21,415 nt of DNA from Bacteroidota bacterium (lineage in GTDB: Bacteria > Bacteroidota > Bacteroidia > Bacteroidales > Prolixibacteraceae), in contig JAUYTA010000177.1 in assembly GCA_030695265.1 (NCBI GenBank), positions 1 through 21,415 on the forward strand. Reading direction: 5' to 3'. Positions 4,444 through 9,430 of this stretch are shown piece by piece; position 1 is the stretch's first letter, and every line of letters begins with the position of its first letter. Position numbers and translations under genes: made by a program. Below the pieces are notes generated by a model. The model ran no database searches, was not told the origin of the DNA, and saw nothing but the letters and a program-made list of their open reading frames with translations.

Positions 4444-5064
4444 TTAAAATGTAATTCTGCAATGTATCCCAATCATTTTATTATCCATACACATTATTTG
4501 TCCAGGCGTCCAGTTAAACGTTAAATCGTCGCTGATATCGAAGTTGAAAAAATGGGCATCAACACTCGCATCGATAATATTTACTGCATAAAAAACGACG
4601 GTTCCGATCACTACCAAATCCCTGTTTCGCCTCCAATAGTCTTTTGCACTTTTCAAACGTTCAGTAAACTGACTAATCTTATCGGGCTGCAGGAATCCGG
4701 GATTAACAGTCAGGCGCGTGTATGAAATCGTATTTGGATCATCATCAATAATATCAGAGTATGCCTGCCTGTATTTGACGTATTCTTCGTTGTTAAAGTT
4801 AATAAAGTATCCTAATGCGGCAAACCCGCCATATACAATCGGAACTTTCCAGTATTTCCGGTTGTAAATCTGACCAAGTCCGGGCAAAACGGCCGAATAA
4901 ATCGTTGCTTTTCTTGGCGAATGAAAGGTTTTAGTTTTTTTTTCCGGTATGGAATCCTGGTAAGTTTTCTGTCCAAAGGCAGAAAATCCTGTTGCGAAAA
5001 ACAGGATTACAAGAAAACAGATGGTAAAATGCCTTACCGGTGCCGGTTGATTTTTTTTATACAT
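4444..5064 (-). CDS. DUF5683 family membrane protein
   Basis: The product has 206 residues with a signal peptide or first membrane helix at about 13-31. The conserved DUF5683 block follows at about 51-90 (RKATIYSAVLPGLGQIYNRK, then KVPIVYGGFAALGYFI), and another hydrophobic segment lies at about 150-165 (VVIGTVVFYAVNIIDASVDA). The family is restricted mainly to Bacteroidota and has no established function. Its start codon lies inside parB: the two genes share 8 bp (5057-5064), which suggests translational coupling. A run of eight A follows the second codon. Position between chromosome segregation genes and a wall hydrolase suggests an envelope role, but this is inference only. Confidence 0.9.
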   Translation of the reverse strand: MYKKNQPAPVRHFTICFLVILFFATGFSAFGQKTYQDSIPEKKTKTFHSPRKATIYSAVLPGLGQIYNRKYWKVPIVYGGFAALGYFINFNNEEYVKYRQAYSDIIDDDPNTISYTRLTVNPGFLQPDKISQFTERLKSAKDYWRRNRDLVVIGTVVFYAVNIIDASVDAHFFNFDISDDLTFNWTPGQIMCMDNKMIGIHCRITF

Positions 5065-5941
5065 TTATTTTGTCGAGGATTCCTAAAATTCTTTCCAGGT
5101 CTTTTGTTGAACCAAAAGGAATTACAATTTTTCCCTTTCCACCCTGATCCATCCTGAAGTCAATTTTCGAATCGAAGAATTTACTCAGATGGTTATTTAA
5201 ATCTACGTATTCACTGGGGAATTTTGGTTTTACAGCTTTTTCTTCAGGCTTAAAACTTGAGTTATCTTCGTTGTAGTTTCTAACTAGTTCCTCCACCCTG
5301 CGAACTGAAAAATCATTTTTCAGGGTTTCATCATAAATCATCAACTGCATTTCCGAATCTTTGATATTTACCAACGCGCGCGCATGTCCCATCGAAATGT
5401 TCTTTTCAACAATTCCTTTCTGTATTTTTGCAGGAAGTTTCAAAAGCCTTAAATAATTGGTAACCGTAGAGCGTTTTTTTCCAACCCGGTCACTTAAATC
5501 TTCCTGCGTTAGTTTGCATTCTTCAATCAAACGCTGGTAACTAAGGGCGATTTCAATGGCATCGAGGTCTTCGCGCTGAATATTTTCAACAAGCGCCATT
5601 TCAAGCATTCCTTCGTCGTTGGCGGTGCGCACAAAAGCGGGAATGGTGGTTAGTCCGGCAATTTTAGCCGCCCTGAACCTTCTTTCCCCGGCAATTATCT
5701 GAAATTGGTTGTTGTCAGTTTTCCGCAGCGTAATGGGTTGAATAATACCTAATTCCCTTATCGAAGCAGCCAATTCGTTCAATGTCTCTTCATCAAATGT
5801 AGTGCGGGGCTGATAAGGATTGGCAACAATTTTTGAAATCTCAACTTCACTAATCGACGATCTGACCTCATTAAAATTATAAGTGTCGGCTCCATCGATC
5901 AAAGCGCCCAAACCTCTTCCCAATACGTTCTTTTTTGCCAT
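5057..5941 (-). CDS. parB: Chromosome partitioning protein ParB
   Basis: The product has 294 residues if it starts at ATG 5941, giving MAKKNVLGRGLGALI, the canonical ParB N-terminus. A TTG two codons upstream is possible but less likely. The N-terminal CTPase/clamp domain shows NPYQPR, GERRFRA (about 85-91) and ENIQREDL (about 119-126). A helix-turn-helix follows (about 144-168, LTQEDLSDRVGKKRSTVTNY) that would read parS, and a C-terminal dimerisation part ends the protein. ParB loads on parS, spreads as a CTP-dependent clamp and is moved by ParA. It lies 13 bp after parA and overlaps the DUF5683 start. I found no parS palindrome in this window. Confidence 0.96.
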   Translation of the reverse strand: MAKKNVLGRGLGALIDGADTYNFNEVRSSISEVEISKIVANPYQPRTTFDEETLNELAASIRELGIIQPITLRKTDNNQFQIIAGERRFRAAKIAGLTTIPAFVRTANDEGMLEMALVENIQREDLDAIEIALSYQRLIEECKLTQEDLSDRVGKKRSTVTNYLRLLKLPAKIQKGIVEKNISMGHARALVNIKDSEMQLMIYDETLKNDFSVRRVEELVRNYNEDNSSFKPEEKAVKPKFPSEYVDLNNHLSKFFDSKIDFRMDQGGKGKIVIPFGSTKDLERILGILDKINV

Positions 5942-5954
5942 AATCAAAAGGTTC

Positions 5955-6755
5955 TTATTCTATAATTTTGTTTGAATTTTTTATTTTCGTTAATCCGTTG
6001 TTTTGGAGTAGTTCGCGTGCAAGGTTCATGTATGAAGCTGATCCTTTGGATGTTGCATCGTAAAGTATTGCCGGTTGTCCATAACTTGGGGCTTCGCTAA
6101 GTTTAATATTGCGATGAATAACCGATTCGAATACCATTTCCTGAAAGTGCTTTTTAACTTCTTCAAGCACCTGGTTCGATAAGTTTAACCGCGAATCGTA
6201 CATGGTGAGCAGAAATCCTTCAATTTCAAGTTCCGGATGTAATTTGGTCTGAATTATCTTGATGGTATTCAGTAGTTTACCCAGTCCTTCGAGCGCAAAA
6301 TATTCGCATTGAACAGGAATTATTACTGAATCAGCAGCAGTCAAAGAATTGACGGTGATAAGTCCAAGTGATGGAGAACAGTCAATAAAAATGAAATCGT
6401 AATCATCCCTGATCTTTTCGATAACATGGCGCAATACTTTTTCGCGGTTGGGCAAATTGAGCATTTCAATTTCAGCACCAACCAAATCGATGTGCGACGG
6501 AATCAGATCTAATCCGGGTATCTCAGTATTCAATATTATTTTTCGTGGATCGAGCTCATCTACAATACATTCATAAATGCTTGTTTTAACATTCCTGACA
6601 TCGAAGCCAACGCCGGATGTTGCATTGGCCTGAGGATCAGCATCAATTATCAATACTTTATACTCTAAAACGGCCAGACTTGCTGCCAGATTGATCGCTG
6701 TCGTTGTCTTCCCAACGCCTCCCTTTTGGTTAGCAAGCGCTATTACTTTTCCCAT
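5955..6755 (-). CDS. parA: Chromosome partitioning ATPase ParA (Soj)
   Basis: The product has 266 residues, typical of chromosomal ParA/Soj without an N-terminal DNA-binding extension. It has the deviant Walker A motif near the N-terminus (QKGGVGKTTTAI, about 10-21), DADPQANAT (about 38-46), the Walker B region FIDCSPSLG (about 123-131) and the family's NRGL-like QCEYFALEGL segment. It binds ATP as a dimer on nucleoid DNA and drives ParB-bound origins apart. It is the first gene of the minus-strand operon continuing through parB, the DUF5683 gene, the transglycosylase gene and the BatA-like gene. A perfect -7 box lies about 27 bp upstream of the start codon. Confidence 0.97.
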   Translation of the reverse strand: MGKVIALANQKGGVGKTTTAINLAASLAVLEYKVLIIDADPQANATSGVGFDVRNVKTSIYECIVDELDPRKIILNTEIPGLDLIPSHIDLVGAEIEMLNLPNREKVLRHVIEKIRDDYDFIFIDCSPSLGLITVNSLTAADSVIIPVQCEYFALEGLGKLLNTIKIIQTKLHPELEIEGFLLTMYDSRLNLSNQVLEEVKKHFQEMVFESVIHRNIKLSEAPSYGQPAILYDATSKGSASYMNLARELLQNNGLTKIKNSNKIIE

Positions 6756-6893: not shown

Positions 6894-7895
6894 CTACTTT
6901 AGAAGCTGATATTTTTTTGCTTCTTTTTTCAGCAGTTCAGAATCGATGGGTACAACTCCAAGTTTTTCGCAAACAAGTCCGCCCGCCAGATTTGAAAGTT
7001 GAGCCATAAACGGGATGGGCAATCCGGCTGCCAAACAGAGACTTGCTGCGGCAATTACAGTATCGCCCGCACCTGAAACATCAGCAATATCGCGCACTTC
7101 TGCCGGATAGTAATGTTGTTTCTCTCCATTGGTCAGAAATACGCCCAATTCGGATAAAGTAATAAAGAGCAACCCGATTTTATTCTCCTTCTTAAAAATA
7201 TCCGAAATCTTTTTCAGTTCTTCCATATCAGTTTTTTCAACCAATAATTTTAGTCCTTCCTTAAATTCCTTGAAATTTGGTTTAAATAAATCAACCTGTT
7301 GGTAATTATTGAAATTTCTGATTTTCGGGTCGGCCGCAATCAGAATATGTTTTGATTTTGCCAGTTCAACTACATTTTTAATGAGCCAGGGCGTGATAAG
7401 TCCTTTGTCGTAATCGACAAATACTACTATGTGTATCTTCTGGGCTTCAATGATCGTTTTTATACGGTCAAATATTAGTTGCTCGAATTCATGGTCAATC
7501 AAAGTTGAAACTTCCTGATCAACCCTTGAAATTTGCTGACCTCCGCTGATGATTCGTGTTTTAACCGTAGTAATCCGGGTTGGATCAATGAAAATTCCCT
7601 GTGTTGGTAATTTTTTTTCCTGCATCAATTCTTCGAAAATGCGGCCTTTTTCATCATTTCCGATAATTGATATCAGTATTGGCGTTGCGCCAAGTGCCTG
7701 AATATTCAGAGAAACATTTCCGGCACCACCCAGTCGGCTTTCTTGTTTGGTAACAGTTACAATCGGAATCGGAGCTTCCGGAGATATGCGGTCAACTTTT
7801 CCCCACAAATAGTTATCTACCATAGCATCGCCGATAACCAATACATTTAATTCCGAAAATTTACTGAATACCTGTTCTATATTGATTTTTTTCAC
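6894..7895 (-). CDS. rfaE1: D-glycero-beta-D-manno-heptose-7-phosphate kinase (PfkB family)
   Basis: The product has 333 residues of the ribokinase/PfkB fold. The N-terminus carries the RfaE domain I pattern: VIGDAMVDNYLWGKVDRISPEAP (about 20-42) and GGAGNVSLN (56-64). ADPKIRNF lies at about 188-195, and the anion-hole/catalytic motif DVSGAGDT has the catalytic base Asp278. Such kinases phosphorylate heptose 7-phosphate at C1 in ADP-heptose synthesis for lipopolysaccharide core. The length matches the stand-alone kinase (HldA type): there is no C-terminal nucleotidyltransferase domain, so the adenylyl transfer must be done by another protein. No heptose genes adjoin it here. The PfkB assignment is certain; the substrate follows from the RfaE-like motifs. 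Confidence 0.88.
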   Translation of the reverse strand: MKKINIEQVFSKFSELNVLVIGDAMVDNYLWGKVDRISPEAPIPIVTVTKQESRLGGAGNVSLNIQALGATPILISIIGNDEKGRIFEELMQEKKLPTQGIFIDPTRITTVKTRIISGGQQISRVDQEVSTLIDHEFEQLIFDRIKTIIEAQKIHIVVFVDYDKGLITPWLIKNVVELAKSKHILIAADPKIRNFNNYQQVDLFKPNFKEFKEGLKLLVEKTDMEELKKISDIFKKENKIGLLFITLSELGVFLTNGEKQHYYPAEVRDIADVSGAGDTVIAAASLCLAAGLPIPFMAQLSNLAGGLVCEKLGVVPIDSELLKKEAKKYQLLK

Positions 7896-7917
7896 TTTCT
7901 GTTTTTTTCTCGAAGCA

Positions 7918-7925
7918 CAAAAGTA
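7918..7925 (-). promoter_or_regulatory. Candidate -7 promoter box for the heptose kinase gene
   Basis: On the minus strand the bases read TACTTTTG, a full match to TAnnTTTG, 23 bp upstream of the ATG at 7895. Transcription would begin near 7911. No convincing TTTG is seen at the -33 position. If this box is used, the kinase gene is transcribed separately from the structured RNA candidate upstream of it. Confidence 0.5.
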
Positions 7926-7984
7926 GTAAAATTAAGTGCTAAAAAAATGATAAAACGGGCTCAAATAGGAGTAGGACTTTAAAA

Positions 7985-8558
7985 CACCAATGGGAACAAT
8001 CCTTTACGGAAAGTTCCCATTCATCTTTGGTTAACCCGAAGGTTTTCCTAAGTGCCAAACTACGGTTATTATAACTGGCTGATCCATCCGGTTTCTCCAA
8101 CCATTTTTCCCAGCCTCTAGCTTTCCTGTATTGCTTGTTACAGCTTTACGTTCCAGCTGTTCGTTCGGCATTTCCGAAGAAATAGCCTTCCCGAACGAAG
8201 TTCCATTAAAGCCACCTTTGTTTCATCCGTTTTTTCAAACTTCTGATCGGTGAAAAACTACTTTCGATCCGGAGATCGTTTCGCTTTCAGTTCGACTTGG
8301 AAGAAACCGAAGTTTCTTTTTGTCTCACGCTTTTTTGAATCAACATTTAAATGAACTTTTGACGGTCCTTTCGTTTGATGCTGAACATTGCAATTTAATG
8401 CTGCGGTTCGAACTTCAGCTCTTTCTGAATGCGGATCCGGAGACCCGGGTGATCAGGTTTGGGGTTCAATTAAGTACCTTCTTCCTTTTCCATTCATTCG
8501 AAGCAGTTTTTTATCGCTCGTCTGATGGAATAAATTTAATACATATTTGGCACTAAAA
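7985..8558 (-). ncRNA. Large structured RNA candidate, class not recognised
   Basis: There is no credible protein gene here, but the minus strand folds densely. Five hairpins carry C(UNCG)G tetraloops: 8432-8447 (CGGGTC-TCCG-GATCCG), 8301-8318 (AAGAAAC-TTCG-GTTTCTT), 8265-8278 (CGATC-TCCG-GATCG), 8160-8199 (outer 9-bp arm, inner ATTTC-TTCG-GAAAT) and 8033-8044 (AACC-TTCG-GGTT). Other stems are 8414-8429, 8140-8160, 8077-8115 (enclosing 8090-8102) and 7989-8021. A long-range stem joins 8546-8554 to 8051-8059 (AGTGCCAAA) and closes a domain of about 500 nt. Pairs such as G-U in the first hairpin exist only on the minus strand, and UNCG loops also arise only there. Motifs of RNase P RNA, tmRNA, SRP RNA and group II domain V were not found. 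Ends are approximate. Confidence 0.6.
7989..8021 (-). terminator. 3' hairpin of the RNA candidate, possible terminator
   Basis: The arms AATGGGAAC and GTTCCCATT pair perfectly over 9 bp. An inner 3-bp stem (TCC/GGA) is separated by a symmetric 2x2 internal loop, with a 5-nt apical loop. On the minus strand the hairpin is followed by GGTGTTTTAAAG, a weak T-tract. It could end the structured RNA before the heptose kinase promoter, or simply be its last domain. Confidence 0.4.
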
Positions 8559-8758
8559 GCAAGCTTTTTCGTAGTTTTGATTCAACTCAGTATAATCCGA
8601 AGTTATAAACAATTGTTGATAACTTTTTGGTGCATTTAAGCTCTAATAATTCAATTGTTTAGACCAACAGCCTGCCTTTAAAATGATACTTGTTAACAAT
8701 TTTTAAAACTGTATTTAAGCGATAATTTATCCAATTTTCACTCTTTTTAATTGATTTT
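8559..8758. other. AT-rich spacer upstream of the RNA candidate
   Basis: There is no reading frame of note in these 200 bp, which lie between the end of the YkgJ-like gene and the RNA candidate. On the minus strand TAACTTCG (8598-8605) matches seven of eight positions of a TAnnTTTG -7 box and would start transcription near 8591, just outside the closing stem of the RNA. A small AAAAGC/GCTTTT inverted repeat lies at about 8556-8569. Neither is strong. Confidence 0.25.
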
Positions 8759-9430
8759 CTATCCAAAAGTTGGCTGGTCATTTGTTAGTGAAATTCTTAA
8801 ACCTGCCTCTAATCTGAATTCGGCTGTATCAATTCCATATTCCTTCAATGCTGCCATGAATCCTTCGTTCATCATCCTACCAGCATGTAATGGAAATTCG
8901 ATCAGCGCAGGATAATTCAATTCATTATCAGGATGCCGGTAAAATTCGAGGCATGTTTCAAGTTTGGTGGAAAGATAAATCCTGCAAGCCATTGGCCTCG
9001 CTTCATAAATAGAGCATGTGCCATTTTCAAGCAGAGGACATGGACTTTTGTATTTTGCTATTTCTACCTCACTCATTTGGGAGGTTACTGCAAATTTTGT
9101 TTCTGCGCGTTCCTGTAATTTTAAAATATTTTCAGGAGAAAAACGGTTTTTGATTTTTTCGGAAAGAAAGTGCAATTCATACGAATTGGCATAAACTGCC
9201 TGATGACAGCACCATTGACAACCTTTGTGGCATGCTACCGGAATTTTTTGCCTTTCGGCCAAAGCAATGATAGATTCATTCAGCGCATCAATATTTGCGT
9301 ACAACGATTCGATGGCCGAAAACAAACTGGCATTTGTTAGGCCGTCATCAATAGCCGATTGAGCCAATTGGTAGCCATCTGAATAGAAGACCCGGTCATT
9401 TTCGGTGAAGTGTTTATTCTCAGTTGCCAT
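8759..9430 (-). CDS. YkgJ-like cysteine-cluster protein
   Basis: The product has 223 residues. It matches the YkgJ/CxxCxxCC family (zinc- or iron-chelating domain): Cys67, 71, 74 and 75 lie in ACHKGCQWCCHQ, then Cys131 and 139 in PCPLLENGTC, Cys149 in EARPMACR and Cys160. These eight cysteines are placed to bind a metal or an Fe-S cluster. The molecular function of the family is not established. The protein has no signal peptide and is likely cytosolic. The start ATG at 9430 lies about 12 nt after the predicted transcription start from a perfect -7 box at 9450-9457. It is divergent from the endonuclease gene. Confidence 0.88.
   Translation of the reverse strand: MATENKHFTENDRVFYSDGYQLAQSAIDDGLTNASLFSAIESLYANIDALNESIIALAERQKIPVACHKGCQWCCHQAVYANSYELHFLSEKIKNRFSPENILKLQERAETKFAVTSQMSEVEIAKYKSPCPLLENGTCSIYEARPMACRIYLSTKLETCLEFYRHPDNELNYPALIEFPLHAGRMMNEGFMAALKEYGIDTAEFRLEAGLRISLTNDQPTFG

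Follow-up and report, generated by a model that had tools for sequence, protein, structure and literature searches.

Several large bacterial RNAs have been described whose architectures proved unexpected, namely OLE, ROOL and GOLLD, and two of these, ROOL and GOLLD, have their genes in phages and prophages, according to the portion of the source used here (PMC12286853). In the phylum Bacteroidota, comparative genomics has yielded the structured RNAs Bacteroidales-1 (RF01693), 6S-Flavo (RF01685) and Flavo-1 (RF01705), as given in the part of the survey drawn on here (PMC2864571). Large structured RNAs are known as a broad category; large and widely conserved bacterial RNA classes that are still undescribed are rare, and it is the class itself that forms the new part of this work.

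We analysed a 21,415-nt stretch of DNA (here called the window) from the draft genome of a Bacteroidota bacterium, in which a large minus-strand RNA had been proposed from the letters of the sequence (the original prediction). Positions 7981–8527 on the minus strand are almost certainly a new structured RNA gene, 547 nt in length. An independently transcribed structured RNA that occurs across Bacteroidia and falls outside the families of Rfam is probably the best explanation of the data presented below.

The RNA gene and its predicted transcription signals

The RNA locus is flanked by two minus-strand genes, one of the pfkB kinase type at 6894–7895 and one with a CxxCxxCC domain at 8759–9430. 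The approximately 860 bases between them contain no open reading frame of at least 80 aa on either strand, which agrees with the earlier description of a region without a credible gene, and in the six copies checked for coding potential each frame in the RNA sense is interrupted by at least three stops. ParA and ParB genes (window positions 5057–6755) adjoin the far side of the kinase gene. The element had originally been placed at 7985–8558; the region was correctly identified and the extent was not, as the transcript best fits 7981–8527 with ends placed by conservation among 48 aligned copies.

Promoters in Bacteroidota consist of a −7 element TAnnTTTG at −12 to −5 and a −33 element TTTG, as far as the consulted portions of two reports describe them (PMC7366714, PMC9723704). 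Sequences of this type precede the RNA gene, and a putative intrinsic terminator ends it:

7981-8527, minus strand: whole RNA gene, 5' CAUCAGACGAGCGAUAAAA ... GUGUUUU 3', with 90.7 bits for the 3'-end model R2 (see below) at 7981-8079
8560-8562, minus strand: −33 element TTG, from sequence and conservation, with the consensus taken from the portion of PMC7366714 used here
8531-8538, minus strand: −7 box TAAATTTA, of the TAnnTTTG type with a deviating last base, conserved in the alignment
7981-8022, minus strand: hairpin H22 at the 3' end with its U-rich tail, read as an intrinsic terminator; in 97 copies, 1365 of 1438 cells are paired

With the −7 box set at −12 to −5, a count by hand from this box predicts a transcription start near 8526, one base ahead of the first helix (P1). 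The alignment shows a conserved promoter sequence of the sigma-A type. In the terminator hairpin H22, 13 of 15 pairs exhibit changes on both sides over 42 order-wide rows, and the tail reads GUGUUUU. Judged from these sequence signals, the minus-strand RNA gene is free-standing and has its own promoter and terminator sequences; we infer that the locus is transcribed.

Secondary structure and searches against known RNA families

The structure was derived from 97 non-redundant copies of 500–600 nt, which were aligned by sequence only with no structure used. Among all pairs of the 517 alignment columns, the ten highest APC-corrected covariation scores belong to helix pairs of the model, each at least 0.89 canonical; 7.6% of the background column pairs reach 0.85 canonical. 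The covariation signal thins lower down, with 22 canonical pairs and 26 pairs in helices among the top 50, and 32 pairs that are 85% canonical and 35 in helices among the top 100, where many of the high scores are not pairs. A helix search based on the covariation scores yielded 22 helices in the 97 copies, and the resulting features of the RNA are as follows:

8520-8525, minus strand: 5' strand of P1 (H1), UCAGAC, pairing with 8055-8060; 580 of 582 cells paired in 97 copies
8055-8060, minus strand: 3' strand of P1, GUUUGG, from the helix search in 97 copies
8509-8519, minus strand: internal-loop strand J1/2, GAGCGAUAAAA; mostly invariant columns in 35 copies
8061-8072, minus strand: internal-loop strand J2/1, AUAAUAACCGUA; mostly invariant columns in alignments A1 and A3
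8504-8508, minus strand: 5' strand of P2 (H2), pairing with 8073-8077; 446 of 484 cells paired, both-side change in 4 of 5 pairs
8419-8503, minus strand: domain A, H3-H6, including the c(UCCG)g hairpin 8432-8447; covariation and compensatory counts
8197-8416, minus strand: domain B, H8-H14, closed by H7 (8412-8416 with 8197-8201); covariation and compensatory counts
8159-8196, minus strand: domain C, H15 and H16, with an apical UUCG hairpin; covariation and compensatory counts
8120-8157, minus strand: domain D, H17-H19; covariation and compensatory counts
8078-8114, minus strand: domain E, stem-loop H20; covariation and compensatory counts
8033-8044, minus strand: hairpin H21, AACC(UUCG)GGUU, 3' of P1; the weakest helix of A1, with 72.2% of cells paired

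Compensatory changes were counted in alignment A1, a set of 35 sequences with 93 pairs in 21 helices, where 93.6% of 3221 cells are paired. Changes on both sides of a pair were found in 61 pairs and 329 cells, with at least one in every counted helix. Controls with slid partners gave 22–32 pairs and 39–91 cells, and shuffles gave on average 36 pairs and 109 cells, with none of 500 reaching the observed values. The count is not independent, because the model was derived from overlapping copies. RNAalifold, which had been run on A1 earlier, found most of the same helices, with 78 pairs of which 51 have a both-side change.

The helix cells of the 97 copies, read on the minus strand, comprise 7218 Watson–Crick, 910 G-U, 238 A-C and 491 other combinations. 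The excess of G-U over A-C identifies the minus strand as the RNA strand, a choice that the original prediction had already made from G-U pairs in a single sequence. Folding of the single sequence is mildly unusual on both strands (z = −2.7 for the minus and −3.25 for the plus strand, 20 shuffles each) and does not favour the minus strand, so that the energy alone leaves the strand unsettled. Taken together, the comparative evidence is decisive for a conserved RNA structure, which on these alignments we regard as near certain.

The internal loop between P1 and P2 measures 11 x 12 nt and is conserved as GAGNGAUAAAA / AAUAACNGUA; its two sides are the longest conserved unpaired strands in the RNA. 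The J1/2 strand reads [G/A]AG[C/A/G]GAUAAA in 15 members from outside the order, for which this motif was among the selection criteria. P2 opens a multi-branch core whose junction bears the five domains A to E, and these are followed by H21 and the terminator H22. An isolated covarying pair between RNA positions 111 and 412 (0.98 canonical) may tie the junction. The pseudoknot H10 (RNA positions 173–175 with 430–432) is weak, with a both-side change in one of three pairs, and was excluded from the counted structure.

Two structural details of the original prediction were compared with relatives. The five UNCG hairpins it listed are all present in the window, and their loops are only partly kept in relatives. 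Those at 8432–8447, 8301–8318, 8160–8199 and 8033–8044 correspond to the conserved elements H6, H13, H15/H16 and H21, while the one at 8265–8278 is real here and variable in relatives. By a simple pattern applied to the 97 copies, the loop of H6 is UNCG in 52, GNRA in 10 and something else in 35, and the loop of the hairpin at RNA positions 290–297 is GNRA in 80, UNCG in 6 and something else in 11. The 9-bp stem proposed to close the domain (8051–8059 with 8546–8554) did not hold up: it is perfect here and retains only 182 of 423 pairs in 47 other copies. It keeps 8 of 9 pairs in three relatives of 97–99% identity, and its 5' arm falls between the −33 and −7 boxes, overlapping the promoter. 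The closing helix is instead P1, which keeps 280 of 282 pairs in the same 47-copy test.

No family of Rfam 15 matches anywhere in the window at gathering scores, and none matches the RNA at the gathering threshold in 14 family loci or 20 order loci. A permissive scan of 7850–8760 produced six weak matches taken as chance, of which the only one on the minus strand at the locus was RAGATH-8 (10.3 bits, E = 4.1). In six short members, a permissive scan returned only STnc320 (E = 0.067) and PyrR205 (E = 0.22), likewise taken as chance. Neither permissive scan produced a weak match to GOLLD, ROOL or OLE. The RNA is probably an undescribed class, because no RNA family in the library searched matches, and no description of it was found in the open-licence literature.

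Three housekeeping RNAs were considered and rejected as identities of the locus. The RNase P RNA model (RF00010) does not match the RNA locus; it matches other loci in 37 of 41 genomes, and the window's own draft is not one of these. The tmRNA model (RF00023) exceeds its cut-off at other loci in 37 of 41 genomes, including another contig of the window's own genome, and ARAGORN detects no tmRNA in the window. The original prediction had likewise seen no motif of either RNA. The 6S RNA model (RF01685, 6S-Flavo) has no match at the RNA locus; sub-threshold matches with E below 0.001 occur at other places in 12 of 40 genomes. One weak match in the window's own genome (G000:C428:1380-1512, 37.4 bits compared with a cut-off of 85) is perhaps a divergent 6S RNA.

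Distribution, size variants and genomic neighbourhoods

Homologues were sought in related genomes, as the original prediction had suggested, and were found across the family, the order and the class. A DNA search of 61 genomes (the window's own included) gave a match to the locus in 29; of the 22 genomes of the same genus, 19 have one. Two diverged types of the RNA are present in 19 of 23 genomes of the genus (own included). A tree of 48 copies groups the 19 type-1 sequences into a clade with support 0.99, and the clade of the 21 type-2 sequences has a support of only 0.40. With a relative's copy as query, matches extend to 96 of 140 genomes of the family (own included), which represent 15 of its 23 genera; we infer this family to be the Prolixibacteraceae (Draconibacterium, Maribellus, Tangfeifania, Prolixibacter). 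One of the copies (L193) comes from a described species with a complete genome, Draconibacterium orientale FH5T.

More distant copies were detected with covariance models of the 3' end, R1 and R2, in which the terminator pairs are the sole base pairs. In the order searched, which we take to be Bacteroidales as defined by GTDB, R1 matches 86 of 344 genomes (own included) at E = 0.001; in ten of these genomes all matches begin at model position 74 or beyond and cover the last part only, leaving 76. A simple expression finds the 5' motif in 18 of 27 order loci examined, one of them from Perlabentimonas gracilis. R2 matches 28 of 395 genomes of the class (own included) at E = 1e-5, of which 27 lie outside the order, and among 345 genomes of the phylum it matches only the window's own and three members of the class. 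The distribution is patchy at these thresholds, with no match in 258 of 344 order genomes, 367 of 395 class genomes and, with the relative's copy as query, 44 of 140 family genomes.

A scan with exact patterns found at least 118 genome loci. Among those listed, 53 are supported by the HMM, and R2 backs 21 of the remaining 65, each with at least 68 bits; the records of these 21 are labelled Bacteroidota, Bacteroidetes, Bacteroidales, Bacteroidia, Marinilabiliales or lower taxa thereof. Loci from outside the Bacteroidota among the 65 listed HMM-negative ones have no R2 support. One HMM-supported locus (L213) comes from a MAG labelled Chlorobiota, but this is apparently the same-family genome G026. 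R2 was also run on seven viral loci and two weak DNA matches. Two pattern scans of viral contigs gave no supported copy: seven matches lack model support, and two others are inside coding genes. Blastn searches of phages and plasmids with the window copy as query gave no match. The RNA is encoded at chromosomal intergenic sites.

The span between the conserved ends is 500–556 nt in 103 of 118 distinct sequences; three are shorter and 12 longer, the maximum being 1106 nt. Members of approximately 290–320 nt occur in other lineages. The long variants (885–908 nt in L147, L161, L174, L186 and L241) have expanded interiors, as do the longest (1088–1106 nt in L111, L212 and L237), in which the ends are conserved. 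The window's genome has a second copy of 373 nt (L046:2288-2660, G000:C743), whose interior is short by approximately 170 nt, a shortening it has in common with a close relative (L048 in genome G014). Tandem copies are found at L099 and L100 (spacing 898–1017 nt), L094–L096 (~2.26 kb) and L280 (~480 nt), and at L094 and L095 a protein-coding open reading frame separates them.

The flanking genes vary between genera while the RNA persists (35 loci listed), and no recurring partner gene was noticed among these 35. The type-1 neighbourhood, consisting of the kinase, ykgJ-like, parA and parB genes, is common to the window and to the single-contig genome G011, which disfavours contamination as the source of the locus, though the window's own draft is rated 9.7% contaminated. 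In G011, a 499-aa open reading frame that looks by eye like a transposase lies between ykgJ and the RNA (L059:2170-3990). It is flanked by a repeat of approximately 50 bp that includes the upstream palindrome described below, as from an unusually long target-site duplication. The type-2 locus adjoins a transporter gene, presumably Nramp-like as judged by eye, in 10 of 12 listed type-2 loci; gene names such as HldE were likewise assigned by eye. No tRNA is found in the window, and one of 14 family loci (L052) has a single tRNA about 2.2 kb away.

Upstream half-sites and possible roles of the RNA

Upstream of the promoter lies a group of short repeated sequences:

8603-8622, either strand: palindrome TTATCAACAATTGTTTATAA, composed of two inverted TTATNAACA half-sites
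8580-8597, minus strand: two extra half-sites, degenerate here (GATTATA at 8591-8597 and GTTGAAT at 8580-8586), placed by hand with frequencies over 129 upstream regions

With the 5' and 3' motifs as anchors, 132 distinct upstream regions were collected. In 126 of them the palindrome TTATNAACAATTGTTNATAA reaches at least 13 of 18, compared to 9 of 132 after shuffling (one shuffle each); its centre is located 87–89 nt upstream in 118 of the 126, and two GTTNATA half-sites then follow. The sequence TTATNAACA is strongly enriched, with 172 sites in 111 of the 132 regions compared to 5.2 in shuffles. The palindrome is found almost only beside the RNA: a search of eight genomes with one mismatch allowed gave 11 sites in seven genomes, ten directly upstream of an RNA copy and one separated from copy 1 of G011 by an inserted transposase gene. 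At this stringency the palindrome is missing from two of the 12 RNA copies known in the eight genomes (one in G140 and that in G152). A strict triple half-site pattern proved uninformative; it identified four other sites in 12 genomes and missed the RNA loci themselves.

The consensus of the DnaA box is TTATNCACA, which the half-sites of the palindrome resemble. Exact boxes show no enrichment in the regions of the order-level set (4 compared to 2.5 expected). Outside the order, the 5' end served as anchor at 15 of 28 loci, full P1 pairing being one of the selection criteria. These 15 divergent regions contain 23 TGTKNAWAA sites in 12 of the 15, where shuffling gives 0.43, and 4 exact DnaA boxes compared to 0.09 expected. 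No such half-site cluster was found in 12 dnaA neighbourhoods. The putative upstream factor would have a DnaA-like preference, and it is conceivable, if on balance doubtful, that it is DnaA. The notion that the RNA locus is the replication origin oriC is not supported: in eight single-contig genomes the RNA is not beside dnaA, and the distances between them range from 0.08 to 1.8 Mb. To our knowledge, a link of this kind between a large RNA and DnaA-like sites would be without precedent.

We favour a trans-acting RNA or RNP, possibly linked to replication. In such a scenario, RNA polymerase would start near 8526, controlled by a factor that occupies the phased half-sites 60–100 bp upstream, and a stable RNA would be released at the terminator and act in trans as an RNP or an RNA-only particle. 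This RNA could work or bind at the conserved P1–P2 internal loop, and the domains of variable size could serve as a scaffold. The RNA is quite likely trans-acting rather than cis-acting, and the odds between an RNP or RNA particle and an antisense regulator appear about even. In a more specific and rather unlikely version, the particle would be made from a DnaA-controlled promoter with a phased cluster of DnaA-box-like sites. Its output would then track the activity of DnaA and either link the initiation of replication with some other process or act back on replication itself.

The position of the RNA just upstream of the pfkB-type kinase gene (6894–7895) on the same strand would fit a riboswitch-like leader acting in cis on the downstream gene. 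This explanation is very improbable, as the RNA ends in its own conserved terminator, tandem copies occur, the neighbours change between genera at the 35 loci with no fixed kind of downstream gene, and in the 12 listed type-2 loci the downstream gene is on the opposite strand. A large trans-acting sRNA that regulates mRNAs by base pairing would also have its own promoter and terminator, and the conserved unpaired segments could seed such pairing. However, 21 helices with compensatory changes far exceed the needs of a seed-type regulator and the best conserved unpaired segments make up the P1–P2 internal loop, which leaves this possibility improbable. The same loop, whose two sides are the longest conserved unpaired strands, could be the active site of a ribozyme or of a ligand-binding RNA, but the genomic context suggests neither a reaction nor a ligand and no Rfam family of any kind matches, and we attach little probability to this reading.

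The locus could also act at the DNA level, with the RNA secondary, as a site of replication control or of DnaA titration, for which datA is the comparison locus. The conservation of the half-site cluster at a fixed spacing and the enrichment of TGTKNAWAA sites and exact DnaA boxes in the 15 divergent regions are consistent with this explanation. Against it stand the preservation of the structure as RNA, seen in the G-U bias and the tetraloops, the lack of enrichment of exact boxes in the order-level set and the distances from dnaA, and overall it seems a slim prospect. Self-assembly into RNA-only homo-oligomers, by which the RNA would work like OLE, ROOL or GOLLD while being unrelated to them, is unlikely but deserves more weight than the alternatives above. 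It is in line with the size of the RNA (103 of 118 spans at 500–556 nt), its multi-domain structure, its conserved unpaired segments, the lack of a noticeable recurring partner gene among the 35 loci, and the behaviour of the three other large bacterial RNAs, as stated in the portion of the source used here (PMC12286853). However, members of only about 290–320 nt exist, and ROOL and GOLLD are RNAs of phages and prophages while no supported viral, phage or plasmid copy was found for the present RNA.

The RNA extends past its own order within Bacteroidia, with approximately 290 to 1100 nt between well conserved ends. The presence of the RNA in a described species and the near specificity of the palindrome for the RNA make expression, structure and the effect of a knockout directly testable. 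The original prediction of a large, ornate and unnamed RNA in Bacteroidota has gained support from the homologues, the compensatory changes, the promoter and terminator sequences and the lack of an Rfam match. RNase P RNA and tmRNA are likewise large structured RNAs of the same genomes, but they are encoded at different loci and their models do not match the RNA. Bacteroidales-1, 6S-Flavo and Flavo-1 come from the same phylum, and none of them matches the RNA in the Rfam scans. The scale of the RNA is comparable to that of OLE or ROOL, as had been proposed, and no evidence shows kinship with them. Like OLE, ROOL and GOLLD, as characterized in the part of the report cited here (PMC12286853), it is several hundred nucleotides long, free-standing and multi-domain, with covariation support. 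Unlike them, it has no Rfam match and occurs in other taxa. ROOL and GOLLD are often located near tRNA islands and, according to the same part of that report, are borne by phages and prophages, whereas the RNA described here is chromosomal and intergenic, in a window that contains no tRNA.
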